Positions 2,844 to 13,949 of a DNA stretch of 23,911 nucleotides are shown in pieces. Every line of letters starts with the position of its first letter. The first letter of the stretch is position 1. Source of the DNA: a virus; the IMG/VR virus record IMGVR_UViG_3300007520_000078, positions 1 to 23,911 of that record, one strand, 5' to 3'. The notes beneath the pieces are model-generated. The model was not told the origin of the DNA. It saw only the letters and a list, made by a program, of their open reading frames with translations, and ran no database searches. Both the position numbers and the translations under genes were made by a program.

Positions 2844-5285
2844 TCAGGCCAGGGCGGCCCAGCCCATGCTGCCGCTGCCGTCCTGCTTGATCCAGAACGT
2901 GGCGCCGGCCCCGCCGTCGAGGTTGCGGTAGTCCGACCCCGGCGGCGCCGCCACCACCCCCTGCGGCGAACCGCGCCCGATGGTGGAGGTGGCACCCGTT
3001 GCCTCGGCCTCGCTGGCCAGGCGCAGCCGCCCCGCGCCACGCGGGCGCAGGGTCAGGTCGCCGTCGCCCAGGCTGCCCAGCGTGGCGGTGCCCGAGGCGT
3101 CCGGCGCCAGGTAGTCGGCCAGCGGGAAGCGGCTGGCGCGCCACATGCCCCAGGTGGCAATCCATTCCACATCGGCATCGGCCGGCACGGTCAGGTCGCC
3201 GCGCGTCCAGTTCTCCTGCAGCGGATTGCTGCCGACGCGGCTGAACGTCACCGCGGTGTTGCAGCGCACCAGCAGCGTGCGCTCCTCGTGCAGCGGCGGG
3301 CCGGCATGGGCCACCGCCGCCGCCCCTGCCCCGTCGCCCACGATGCTCACCGGCACGGTGGTGCCGATCGGGCCGTAGCCGCTGCCATGGCTCAGCACGA
3401 CAATGCCGATCACCTGGCCATTGGCGACCATCGCCTCGGCATCCGCCACACCGCCCCCGCCGCCCCCACCTTCAATCGTCACGCTGGCCTGGGTATAGCC
3501 GCTGCCGCCCGCGGTCACGCGCACGAAGCTGATGCGCCCCGCCCACGCCGCCTGGTTGCTCGACATCATCGCCTGCACCCCGTCGGGCGCGTAGGTCACC
3601 ATCACGCTGTCGGCGATGTCGGGGAACACCAGCCGCTGCACCCCGCCCTCGGCCTGCGGGTTGGTCACGAAGCGGGCGGTGAAGTCGTGGCGGTTGCCGC
3701 GCACCAGCACGCTGTCGGTATCGGCGCGCAGGCAGTCCGTGGCCGCCCGCCCGACGAAGTTGTTGTCAGCGACGAGAACGTTGCGCGGCCCGTCGCGCAG
3801 CCACACGCCCGAGGCGGTGCCCGACATGGTGAGCCAGTTGCCGGTGATCGCCAGGTTGGAACACGCGATGCCGAAGTTGAGCGCCCCGCCATCGGTCTCC
3901 ACGTTGTTCACCGTGATGCCCCACAGCGTGAACCCGGCCAGGTAGTTGCCGGCCACGCGCAGGTTGGTGCTGCCGCCGCAGTTGATGGCGAAGCCGTGGC
4001 CCAGGATGTGGTTGTCGCTGAAGTCGCTGTCGATCGCGCCGCCGCAGTCGATGCCGTACAGCGCCGTGCCAGTCATGGTGTTGCCGGCGATGCGCGAGCC
4101 CGCGACATTGGCCAGCATCGCCGCCCCGCTCGGCTCGGTGGTGCCGTTGTCCACCAGCAGGTTGCCGCTGGCCAGCAGCGCGCGGCCGGCCAGCGCCATG
4201 CCGTACACCTGGTTGTCGTGGCAGATGTTGCCGCTGGCCACCACCGCCACCGCGTCGGGGAAGTCGTTGCCCCACACCGGCGGCGAGATGTTCGGCACGT
4301 TGAAGTTGCCGATGGCGATGCCGCGCACGTTGCCCCAGCAGCGGTTGCCGATCACCTGCACCAGGCGCGCCACGCGGCTATGCGCCACGTCGTTGAAATC
4401 GACGGTGATGCCATAGGCGTCGTTGCCGTGCGCCCGGCAATCGCTCACCAGCACCCCGGCACAGGCCTGCACCCACAGCCCATGCGCCGCGTTGCCCGAG
4501 AAGCTGCAGTCGCGCACGATATGGTTGCACAAGGCCGGGTCGGTGGATTGCAGCACCAGCCCGCTGCCCAGCACCGCGCCCGCGGCATTGACGAAGGCAC
4601 ACCGATGCAAATCCGAACTGGTGCAGGCCTCGGTCAGCAGCACGCCCCAGCTTTCCTGGCTCACCACGGCGCGGTTGGCGTCGAAGGTCACGCCGTCGGC
4701 GCGGAACCCCGGCGCCTGCACCGCGATCCATGCGCCATTGCCCATCTGTATCCCACGGCGCAGCACGCTCAGCCCGGGCGTGCCCAGCAGCACGGTGTTC
4801 GGCTGGGTGATCGTCCACTGCCCGTCCACCCGATAGGTGCGCGGCCCCAGCCGCACCGGCCGCCCGCTGCCCACCGCGGCATTCAGCGCGGCGGTATCGT
4901 CGGTGATGCCGTCGCCGACCGCGCCGAAGCTCTCCGGCCCCACCGCATCGGCCAGCAACTCACCCAGCGGGCGCGACGTGGTGGTGCCGCCGGCCAACGC
5001 GCTGGCCTGGGATACGCTGGTGGCCGGCCCCAGCGCCGCGATCGGTGCGGCCGCCAGCACGCCGCCGGCCAGCGCCAGCCCGGCCCCCACGCCCAGCGCC
5101 TCCGGCCCGCCCAGCCCGCCGCTCGCCCGGCCCAGCAATTGCCCGCCCGACAGCGCGATCTGCGGCTGCATGCCCGCCAGAAGCTGGGCGCGCGACACCT
5201 GGCGCACCTCCCCCCCCTGGCTCGCCGGCAGCAAGTCGCTGTCGGCCGACGCGATCGCCACGTCCAGTTCGTCGATGGTCGGCAT
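2844..5285 (-). CDS. Beta-helix tailspike (pectate-lyase-like), 813 aa
   Basis: ATG at 5285 lies 3 bases after the adaptor stop codon, with a GGGGGG tract 7 bases upstream. Residues 1-80 form the same N-terminal module as the next spike. An Ala/Gly-rich linker follows, then SFGAVGDGITDDTAALNAA at about 119-137, the usual opening of pectate-lyase superfamily beta-helices in phage spikes. Residues about 140-560 show repeated coils of the type SGNLLVDN, AGNTMTG, SDNHILG, AGNYLAG and TGNWLTMSG. A Gly-rich stretch and a C-terminal region ending FWIKQDGSGSMGWAALA close the protein. Expected to act at the baseplate periphery as a receptor-binding or depolymerising spike, substrate unknown. The reading frame crosses a run of eight G residues at codons 23-26 (5210-5217), which could make expression switchable. 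Confidence 0.9.
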   Translation of the reverse strand: MPTIDELDVAIASADSDLLPASQGGEVRQVSRAQLLAGMQPQIALSGGQLLGRASGGLGGPEALGVGAGLALAGGVLAAAPIAALGPATSVSQASALAGGTTTSRPLGELLADAVGPESFGAVGDGITDDTAALNAAVGSGRPVRLGPRTYRVDGQWTITQPNTVLLGTPGLSVLRRGIQMGNGAWIAVQAPGFRADGVTFDANRAVVSQESWGVLLTEACTSSDLHRCAFVNAAGAVLGSGLVLQSTDPALCNHIVRDCSFSGNAAHGLWVQACAGVLVSDCRAHGNDAYGITVDFNDVAHSRVARLVQVIGNRCWGNVRGIAIGNFNVPNISPPVWGNDFPDAVAVVASGNICHDNQVYGMALAGRALLASGNLLVDNGTTEPSGAAMLANVAGSRIAGNTMTGTALYGIDCGGAIDSDFSDNHILGHGFAINCGGSTNLRVAGNYLAGFTLWGITVNNVETDGGALNFGIACSNLAITGNWLTMSGTASGVWLRDGPRNVLVADNNFVGRAATDCLRADTDSVLVRGNRHDFTARFVTNPQAEGGVQRLVFPDIADSVMVTYAPDGVQAMMSSNQAAWAGRISFVRVTAGGSGYTQASVTIEGGGGGGGVADAEAMVANGQVIGIVVLSHGSGYGPIGTTVPVSIVGDGAGAAAVAHAGPPLHEERTLLVRCNTAVTFSRVGSNPLQENWTRGDLTVPADADVEWIATWGMWRASRFPLADYLAPDASGTATLGSLGDGDLTLRPRGAGRLRLASEAEATGATSTIGRGSPQGVVAAPPGSDYRNLDGGAGATFWIKQDGSGSMGWAALA

Positions 5286-12457: not shown

Positions 12458-13486
12458 CTACCCCTGCAACGCGCCGGCCCAGGCCGGCGACATCTGCGCG
12501 TCGAATCCCGTCATTCCCGAGGGCGGCCGTCCGGCCTCGCGCGCCAGGTGCTCGGCGATCCAGCGGCCCAGCAACGCGCCATCGATCTCCAACCGGCCTT
12601 CCACCACGCGCTCGTCCTCCGGCATCTCCTCGGCGTCTGGCCGCGCGGCCTCGGGCAGCATCTCCGGGCGCACCGCCGGGGCCACCGCCCCCCGCGCCGC
12701 GCTCTCCTCCGCCCGCGCCATCGCCACGCCTGTCTCCGTCACGCCCATCTCGGCCACCACGGCGGCCACCGACGAAGCGCCCGCCTCGGCCCGCGCGTTC
12801 GGTGACACGCCAGCGGACGATGCCACCAGCGCCGCCCCGGCCTCGGCCACCGGCGCCCCGGAAAGCCGCCGCCAATCCAACGCGCTCCAATCCACCCGCC
12901 CGGAAGCCGGCCCGGCAGCCATGACGGCGGACGCGGGCACGGCCGACGGCGCCGCCATCCAACCCTGCCACGCCAGCCGCTCCGGCCCGGGCCCCGGCGG
13001 GGAGGCGGGGCCCACGCCCGCAGGCGCCGCTGCCGCCATCCTCCCCGCCGAAACCGCAACCTCCCCCCGCGCCGCCGCCTCACGGGCCTCATCCCGTAGG
13101 ACGGGCGAGGCCACCGGACGCGCCGCCACGGTCACCGGAAACTCCGCCGGCGCCACGGCAACCGCGCCCGCCGCCACCGGGACGGGCACCACCATTGGCG
13201 CCACCATTGGCGCCACCATTGGCACCACCATTGGCGCCACCATTGGCGCCACCATTGGCGCCACCGCCGGGCCCACCGCGAGAAACGCCGCGGTCACCGC
13301 CCGCTCCAGCATCGCCATCTCGCGCGCCAGCAGCGGCCCCGCCGCCGCCACGCCATGATCGAGCGCCACCCCCAGCCCCACCTCCCACGGGTCGTCCGCG
13401 AGCAGCCCGGGCGGCAGCGCCTCATGCGGCACCGGATCGCCCGCCAGTTCCTCCGGCACGTCCTGCTCGTCGGGCGATCCGTCCAT
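12458..13486 (-). CDS. Putative short tape measure protein, 342 aa, Ala/Pro-rich with repeats
   Basis: It occupies the tape measure position: directly after the frameshifted chaperone and before GpU, X and D. Start ATG at 13486 overlaps the chaperone stop (TGATG), with GGAGGG 8 bases upstream. The protein starts with an acidic stretch (MDGSPDEQDVPEELAG). A helical part (AREMAMLERAVTAAFLAV) follows, then six tandem tetrapeptide units (APMV, one VPMV) from a 12-bp repeat (13191-13262), then a long Ala-rich, low-complexity middle. The C-terminal segment is less biased (IDGALLGRWIAEHLAREAGRPPSGMTGF). Known tape measures are usually 600-1500 residues and scale at about 0.15 nm per residue, so 342 would mean a tail near 50 nm. 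An alternative is a tail accessory protein with no true tape measure here. Confidence 0.5.
   Translation of the reverse strand: MDGSPDEQDVPEELAGDPVPHEALPPGLLADDPWEVGLGVALDHGVAAAGPLLAREMAMLERAVTAAFLAVGPAVAPMVAPMVAPMVVPMVAPMVAPMVVPVPVAAGAVAVAPAEFPVTVAARPVASPVLRDEAREAAARGEVAVSAGRMAAAAPAGVGPASPPGPGPERLAWQGWMAAPSAVPASAVMAAGPASGRVDWSALDWRRLSGAPVAEAGAALVASSAGVSPNARAEAGASSVAAVVAEMGVTETGVAMARAEESAARGAVAPAVRPEMLPEAARPDAEEMPEDERVVEGRLEIDGALLGRWIAEHLAREAGRPPSGMTGFDAQMSPAWAGALQG
13191..13262. repeat. 12-bp minisatellite, six copies
   Basis: Six head-to-tail copies of ACCATTGGCGCC are seen on the plus strand; the third has A in place of G (GGCACC), which changes Ala to Val in the product. It lies in frame within the putative tape measure and encodes a Val-Ala-Pro-Met tetrapeptide repeat. 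Multiples of 12 bp keep the frame, so copy number changes would lengthen or shorten the protein without truncating it. Confidence 0.95.
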
Positions 13487-13949
13487 CAGCCATCCCTCCA
13501 GGCCAGCGCATTCCAGTCGAACGACCCGCCCTTCAGCGTGCCGATCGCCACCACCCACGCGAAACGCTGCGTGGCCGAAAGCCCGAAGGCGACATCGTGC
13601 GGCACCCCGTTCATCACGAGATAGAGACAATCCCGCAGATCGGGGTGCCGACTCAGTTTCCCGCCATGGCCCGGTCGAACGCCGGCTCGGGCACCAGGGC
13701 GGCGGCCACCGCGGCGATGCCCGGCTCGTCCAGCCGCCCCACCGCCGCCTCGATCGCCGCCTTGCTGGCGGGAAACGGCACCGGCACCCCGTCGATCGCC
13801 GTCACGCTGGCAGCCAACACCGCCAGCCCCAGCCACCGGTCATTGCGCGAAAGCTCCGCCCCGGCCGCCTCGAACAGCCGCAGCCGGTCCAGCACCCCCA
13901 GCCGCCGCAGCGCCAGGCGCCGTCCCGTCGCATCGATCACCTCATCCAT
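13486..13949 (-). CDS. Tail assembly chaperone, long -1 frameshift fusion (GpE+E'-like), 154 aa
   Basis: The -1 frame continues after GGGAAAC at 13656-13662 with LSRHPDLRDCLYLVMNG and so on, ending SFDWNALAWRDG at 13486. Reading 98 codons plus 56 gives 154 residues. The C-terminal segment has the look of real protein (LRDCLYLVMNGVPHDVAFGLSATQRFAWVVAIGTLKGGSFDW) and no good start codon or ribosome-binding site of its own near its beginning. It overlaps the next gene by TGATG. Frameshift fusion of this pair is conserved in tailed phages (lambda G-GT, P2 E-E'), and the long form is thought to recruit the tape measure. Confidence 0.82.
13600..13662 (-). promoter_or_regulatory. Programmed -1 frameshift signal: slippery site, spacer and stem
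   Basis: Slippery heptamer G-GGA-AAC (13656-13662) in the zero frame allows both tRNAs to re-pair as GGG-AAA in the -1 frame. A 5-base spacer (13651-13655) includes the zero-frame stop TGA. A perfect 10-bp stem follows: CGGCACCCCG (13641-13650) with CGGGGTGCCG (13600-13609) and a 31-base loop. The loop contains GCGGGATT, which might add a pseudoknot, but this is not established. Heptamer, spacer length and stem all fit the known rules for -1 frameshifting. Confidence 0.9.
13653..13949 (-). CDS. Tail assembly chaperone, short product (GpE-like), 98 aa
   Basis: Tail assembly chaperones lie between tube and tape measure and bind the tape measure while the tube polymerises. This frame (MDEVIDATGRRLALRRLGVLDRLRLFEAAGAELSRNDRWLGLAVLAASVTAIDGVPVPFPASK) starts at ATG 13949, 3 bases after the tube stop. 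It is mainly alpha-helical, as expected. It ends FDRAMAGN-stop at a GGGAAAC slippery heptamer, where a minor fraction of ribosomes should shift -1 to make the longer product. The ribosome-binding site is weak, so coupling to the tube gene may matter. Confidence 0.85.
   Translation of the reverse strand: MDEVIDATGRRLALRRLGVLDRLRLFEAAGAELSRNDRWLGLAVLAASVTAIDGVPVPFPASKAAIEAAVGRLDEPGIAAVAAALVPEPAFDRAMAGN

Follow-up and report, generated by a model that had tools for sequence, protein, structure and literature searches.

Frameshifting in tail assembly chaperone (TAC) genes is widespread in long-tailed phages (PMC5009743), and the G/GT frameshift of phage lambda (Xu, Hendrix and Duda, 2004, as cited in PMC3556154 and PMC5009743) belongs to this group. 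The heptamer GGGAAAC has been published as the TAC shift site of Colossus (PMC3556154) and HCTV-1 (PMC5009743), and simple stem-loops are the standard stimulators of bacterial frameshifting (PMC5009743). A candidate signal of this kind lies on the minus strand of the window, i.e. the whole 23,911-base IMG/VR contig IMGVR_UViG_3300007520_000078 analysed here. The ORF list together with Pfam and PHROG searches revealed genes for terminase, portal, capsid, tail sheath and baseplate and hence a contractile-tailed phage. The gene order is sheath, tube slot, chaperone gene and tape measure slot, with the tail tube and tape measure genes assigned from position and motif. As judged by eye, the 342-aa ORF in the tape measure slot begins like the YxVGxxLALDxxV start of the corresponding ORFs of the relatives. 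A tandem 12-bp repeat of about seven copies within this ORF (13185-13277) encodes repeated MVAP units.

Table 1. Features of the chaperone locus and its neighbours in the window.
Feature	Position	Strand	Basis
Tail sheath protein, 519 aa	14581-16140	-	PHROG 23 (tail sheath), E 1.4e-42; marks a contractile tail
ORF of the tail tube slot, upstream of the chaperone gene, 142 aa	13953-14381	-	PHROG 12993 (unknown function); position after the sheath
0-frame gene, 98 aa, short (gpG-like) chaperone form, ending in AMAGN	13653-13949	-	Position immediately after the tail tube slot; match to PHROG 20383 (unknown function) at E 1.6e-18
Slippery heptamer GGGAAAC, in phase G_GGA_AAC	13656-13662	-	Sequence; homologues with GGGAAAC or another X_XXY_YYZ in the same phase
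0-frame stop TGA directly after the heptamer	13653-13655	-	Sequence; same place in most homologues
Stem 5' arm CGGCACCCCG	13641-13650	-	Conserved 9-bp core includes 13649-13641; core pairing and frozen third codon positions
Loop, 31 nt	13610-13640	-	Stem can continue into its closing part past a 1x1 mismatch
Stem 3' arm CGGGGTGCCG	13600-13609	-	13609-13601 in the core; same evidence as for the 5' arm
-1 frame extension (T-like domain), 56 codons, from CTG (13656) to TGA (13488-13486)	13486-13656	-	Protein conserved in all homologues
Next ORF, in the tape measure slot, 342 aa	12458-13486	-	Position; resemblance of the start motif

The 98-codon gene ends with GCG GGA AAC TGA, the spacer between heptamer and stem is TGAGT (5 nt), and the final A of the extension's TGA is also the first base of the ATG (13486-13484) that opens the next ORF (TGATG). 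The first-pass annotation had placed the signal at 13662-13600 of the minus strand with the 0-frame TGA right after G-GGA-AAC, which is exact to the base, and both the 56-codon -1 frame running to the TGATG overlap and the fusion length of 154 residues (98 + 56) were also given correctly. Folding of a 96-nt region led to an energy of -45.4 kcal/mol (z -3.3). The spacer, 5 nt to the 10-bp stem of the window and 6 nt to its conserved core, lies within the 5-9 nt expected for hairpin-stimulated frameshifting. X_XXY_YYZ heptamers occur 30 times in the window when both strands are counted, and only the one in the chaperone gene has a stem of at least 9 bp within 4-9 nt. Heptamer and stem were found in combination anywhere in 31 of 300 dinucleotide shuffles of the window (71% GC), before frame, stop and gene position were required. 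As about 10% of the shuffles thus give the pair, the pair alone is not decisive and the comparison of homologues decides.

Searches by protein similarity only, with identical copies removed, yielded 285 distinct loci that have the two domains. The -1 frame encodes the extension in 280 of them, and an in-phase heptamer is present in almost every case; GGGAAAC (146 loci), AAAAAAC (81), AAAAAAG (25) and AAAAAAA (14) were detected besides a few others, and the XXX triplet of the heptamer switches from GGG to AAA as one unit. The same gene was recovered independently by a DNA pattern fixing only AAAC and the two arms, with GGG or AAA ahead in 130 of the 141 distinct matches. Since this pattern selects for the stem, its loci were excluded from the conservation counts; chance matches to it showed no extension. 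Slippery sequence and stem had been regarded as specific to this element in the first-pass annotation, which has to be corrected, as hundreds of relatives share both and the heptamer is a published TAC site (see above). The loci support a programmed -1 frameshift in what would be the TAC gene of a myovirus, belonging to a large group of phages and prophages in Acetobacteraceae and other hosts. When the 0-frame protein was compared with named phages by tblastn, no match was obtained, and the signal had no match in Rfam; Pfam searches with both frames returned nothing usable. In seven loci (L012 at 3452-3530, L034, L044, L069, L076, L104 and L165) the next conserved tail gene (xLGGVxFQDxEVPExIxFGG) follows about 80 nt or less past the extension stop, so that a tape measure gene would not fit in between. 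In L099 (10585 onward), AAAAAAC and the stem are present and the extension is one further base out of frame after the stem, either by a sequencing error or in a decayed copy. When 150 genomes of one bacterial family were sampled, 61 contained the 0-frame chaperone domain; the relatives carry the labels Acetobacteraceae, Rhodospirillales or Asaia. The tail gene set is therefore a very common resident of that family.

The extension might also be a separate gene, with translational coupling or re-initiation at the overlap and an incidental heptamer. Three relatives indeed resemble this arrangement, namely L014 with an ATGA stop-start overlap and no heptamer (3270-3310), L011 with a separate ATG after the stop (2782-2820) and L039 with CCCAAAC followed by TGATG (2754-2765), and two genes are annotated in phiKX1 and phiKX2. 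However, in the first set of 166 loci found through protein similarity, which was also used for the stem counts below, 98 offer the extension no ATG, GTG or TTG whatever as a start in its own frame, and a start with a Shine-Dalgarno-like sequence was observed in only six. The extension can thus hardly be made except via entry from the 0 frame. Moreover, the in-phase heptamer is kept in nearly all loci, and the sole upstream -1 frame start listed in the window is a GTG at 13836, which precedes the shift site by 180 nt. A separate gene is therefore very improbable for this locus.

Nine pairs of the stem are formed in 93-100% of the 166 loci, calculated per pair, and the outermost tenth pair, formed in 44%, is judged not to be under selection; of the 5-base spacer, perfect 10-bp stem and 31-base loop described in the first-pass annotation, all present in the window, only nine of the ten pairs are accordingly conserved. 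Conservation of the stem merely through the coding of two conserved peptides (RHP and GVP), with no role of the RNA, would agree with the retention of GVP in most loci without heptamer or stem, but the third codon positions of the arms are frozen (Gly GGG in 159/164, Val GTG in 160/164, Pro CCC or CCT in 149/157), whereas the Pro codon that adjoins the core varies freely (CCG 69, CCC 46, CCA 29, CCT 20). Compensatory changes were found in separate lineages (L015 with GGGATTCCG/CGGAATCCC, L322, L050/L052, L013 and L319), in the first three cases together with an altered peptide, and where the stem is lost, RHP vanishes and GGG GTG has turned into GGC GTN in most such loci. Coding as the only reason for the stem is hence scarcely conceivable. 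Among 82 diverse sequences, 94% of the core cells are paired, with 15 double-sided changes across six pairs, compared to at most 7 changes and five pairs in 1000 shuffles, a control which leaves the relatedness among the sequences in place. Slid registers gave double-sided changes too, yet a pairing of only 39-50%. The strongest co-varying pair overall connects positions 23 and 51 from the heptamer and extends the stem past a 1x1 mismatch. A pseudoknot involving the loop, as suggested in the first-pass annotation, was rejected, since the best helices between loop and downstream sequence in the homologue alignment are at most 0.05 above column expectation; a TCGTG/CACGA complement noticed by eye in the window has no counterpart in the relatives and reflects chance. 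The proposed check of the homologues for a loss of the heptamer or the complementary arms showed that both are kept in the clade of the window. On this comparative evidence, heptamer and stem are both shown to be under selection. Slippage of the RNA polymerase at a homopolymer instead of ribosomal shifting, for which the A6-A7 runs of the AAAAAAC, AAAAAAG and AAAAAAA relatives would be suitable, is barely credible as the source of the fusion, as the three Gs and three As of GGGAAAC are to our knowledge too short for known transcriptional slippage, and the codon phase and the stem 5-6 nt downstream, neither of which slippage requires, are both kept here.

From the frame, the heptamer and the stem, the locus almost certainly carries a hairpin-stimulated programmed -1 frameshift, by which two products would be made from one TAC gene of a contractile-tailed phage. 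This lambda G-GT type reading had already been put forward in the first-pass annotation and has strong support from the homologues; as judged from them, the signal is real and strongly conserved, and the kind of mechanism is already well known. Most ribosomes would terminate at the TGA, giving the 98-aa form. A minority would be delayed by the stem 5 nt downstream with GGA in the P site and AAC in the A site, re-pair on GGG and AAA and continue with CTG to the 154-aa fusion. In analogy to gpG/gpGT of lambda, the short form may serve to coat the tape measure protein, and the tail tube protein may be recruited through the extension; the efficiency of shifting would set the ratio of the two products. 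We infer the occurrence of shifting, its efficiency and the assembly roles from sequence and analogy. An AlphaFold2 model of the 98-aa form (pLDDT 90.7) had the HK97 tail assembly chaperone 2ob9 as its top, albeit weak, fold match in the PDB (E 1.2, TM 0.46), and weak matches to viral models in BFVD include named TACs and Mu FS-gp41; these fold matches are suggestive only of a tail assembly chaperone. As tail assembly chaperones are marked by a location between the slots for tube and tape measure and by the making of two products from a single gene, the assignment as TAC from position, frameshift and weak fold match is likely.

Both domains also occur in a single sister clade, fully supported in the tree (34 of 106 dereplicated rows), that largely lacks the stem; the stem is thus not needed everywhere. 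The shift codons of this clade are AAG, AAA and AAC, including some stemless AAAAAAC members, and AAG as shift codon was found only there. When the dereplicated rows were counted by heptamer, a stem was found in 23/23 with GGGAAAC, 40/53 with AAAAAAC, 3/12 with AAAAAAA and 0/14 with AAAAAAG. A replacement of the need for a stem by AAG-ending heptamers was considered and rejected, as nearly all stemless rows belong to a single clade, in which stemless AAAAAAC members occur as well, and no support came from independent pairs. As stem loss was mainly one event, the association does not establish that shift codon and stem are causally connected. In the few loci without any heptamer (L011 and L014) the RHP peptide is gone, and the frameshift seems to have been replaced by a separate or coupled start. 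Tentatively, and with considerable doubt, the family might be regarded as a natural series of building and loss of a frameshift signal, from a near-invariant 9-bp stem with AAC-ending codons and arms that dictate two peptides, to the stemless clade holding AAG and to lineages with a separate or coupled start. If this were true, the same product ratio could be held either by the stem or by the shift codon, the two being interchangeable.

With this assignment, a likely function as TAC with a short and an extended form can be given to families that are unknown in PHROGs and absent from Pfam. Annotation pipelines split the chaperone gene, as has happened in phiKX1 and phiKX2, and the deep conservation offers a good natural data set on how heptamer and stem set the level of bacterial frameshifting. 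The literature found, with most subscription literature lying outside the search, contained no description of the stem or the protein family.

Among the known systems, lambda G/GT resembles the window in the position of the gene between the tail tube and tape measure genes, in the P-site half of the heptamer (GGGAAAG in lambda) and in a -1 extension that ends at the tape measure gene (T overlaps H in lambda). It differs in the shift codon, which is AAG in lambda and AAC in the window, in the 0-frame stop, which directly follows the heptamer in the window, and in the conserved perfect stem 5 nt after the heptamer, as the lambda sequence has no such stem there; no protein sequence similarity was found between the two. 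Caulobacter phage CcrColossus gp116/gp117 (JX100810; PMC3556154) has the identical slippery sequence with an immediate TGA (GGGAAACTGA) and a chaperone pair ahead of the tape measure gene, but it is a siphovirus and its own record has no long stem at the matching place. E. coli dnaX shares the heptamer and a downstream simple stem-loop at short spacing (PMC5009743), but is a cellular gene with A_AAA_AAG and an upstream Shine-Dalgarno stimulator; no such stimulator was noted in the window. The cultivated Komagataeibacter phages phiKX1 and phiKX2 (LC644975, LC644976; PMC8566455) have a contractile tail, an extension domain with 45% identity and the stem GGCACCCCG/CGGGGTGCC at equal spacing. Their heptamer is A_AAA_AAC, in contrast to the window, and a 171-aa ORF precedes a 742-aa ORF in the tape measure slot. 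The order of sheath, tube slot, chaperone gene and tape measure slot recurs in phiKX1. In the deposited annotation of phiKX1 (L027, 5657-6198) and phiKX2 (L028), two hypothetical genes are given and the fusion was missed. As a rule of thumb, a tape measure protein corresponds to 0.15 nm of tail length per residue, and about 111 nm would be expected from the 742-aa ORF of phiKX1. The contractile tails of phiKX1 were reported to be 98.9 nm (PMC8566455), which fits an ORF of this length in the tape measure slot.
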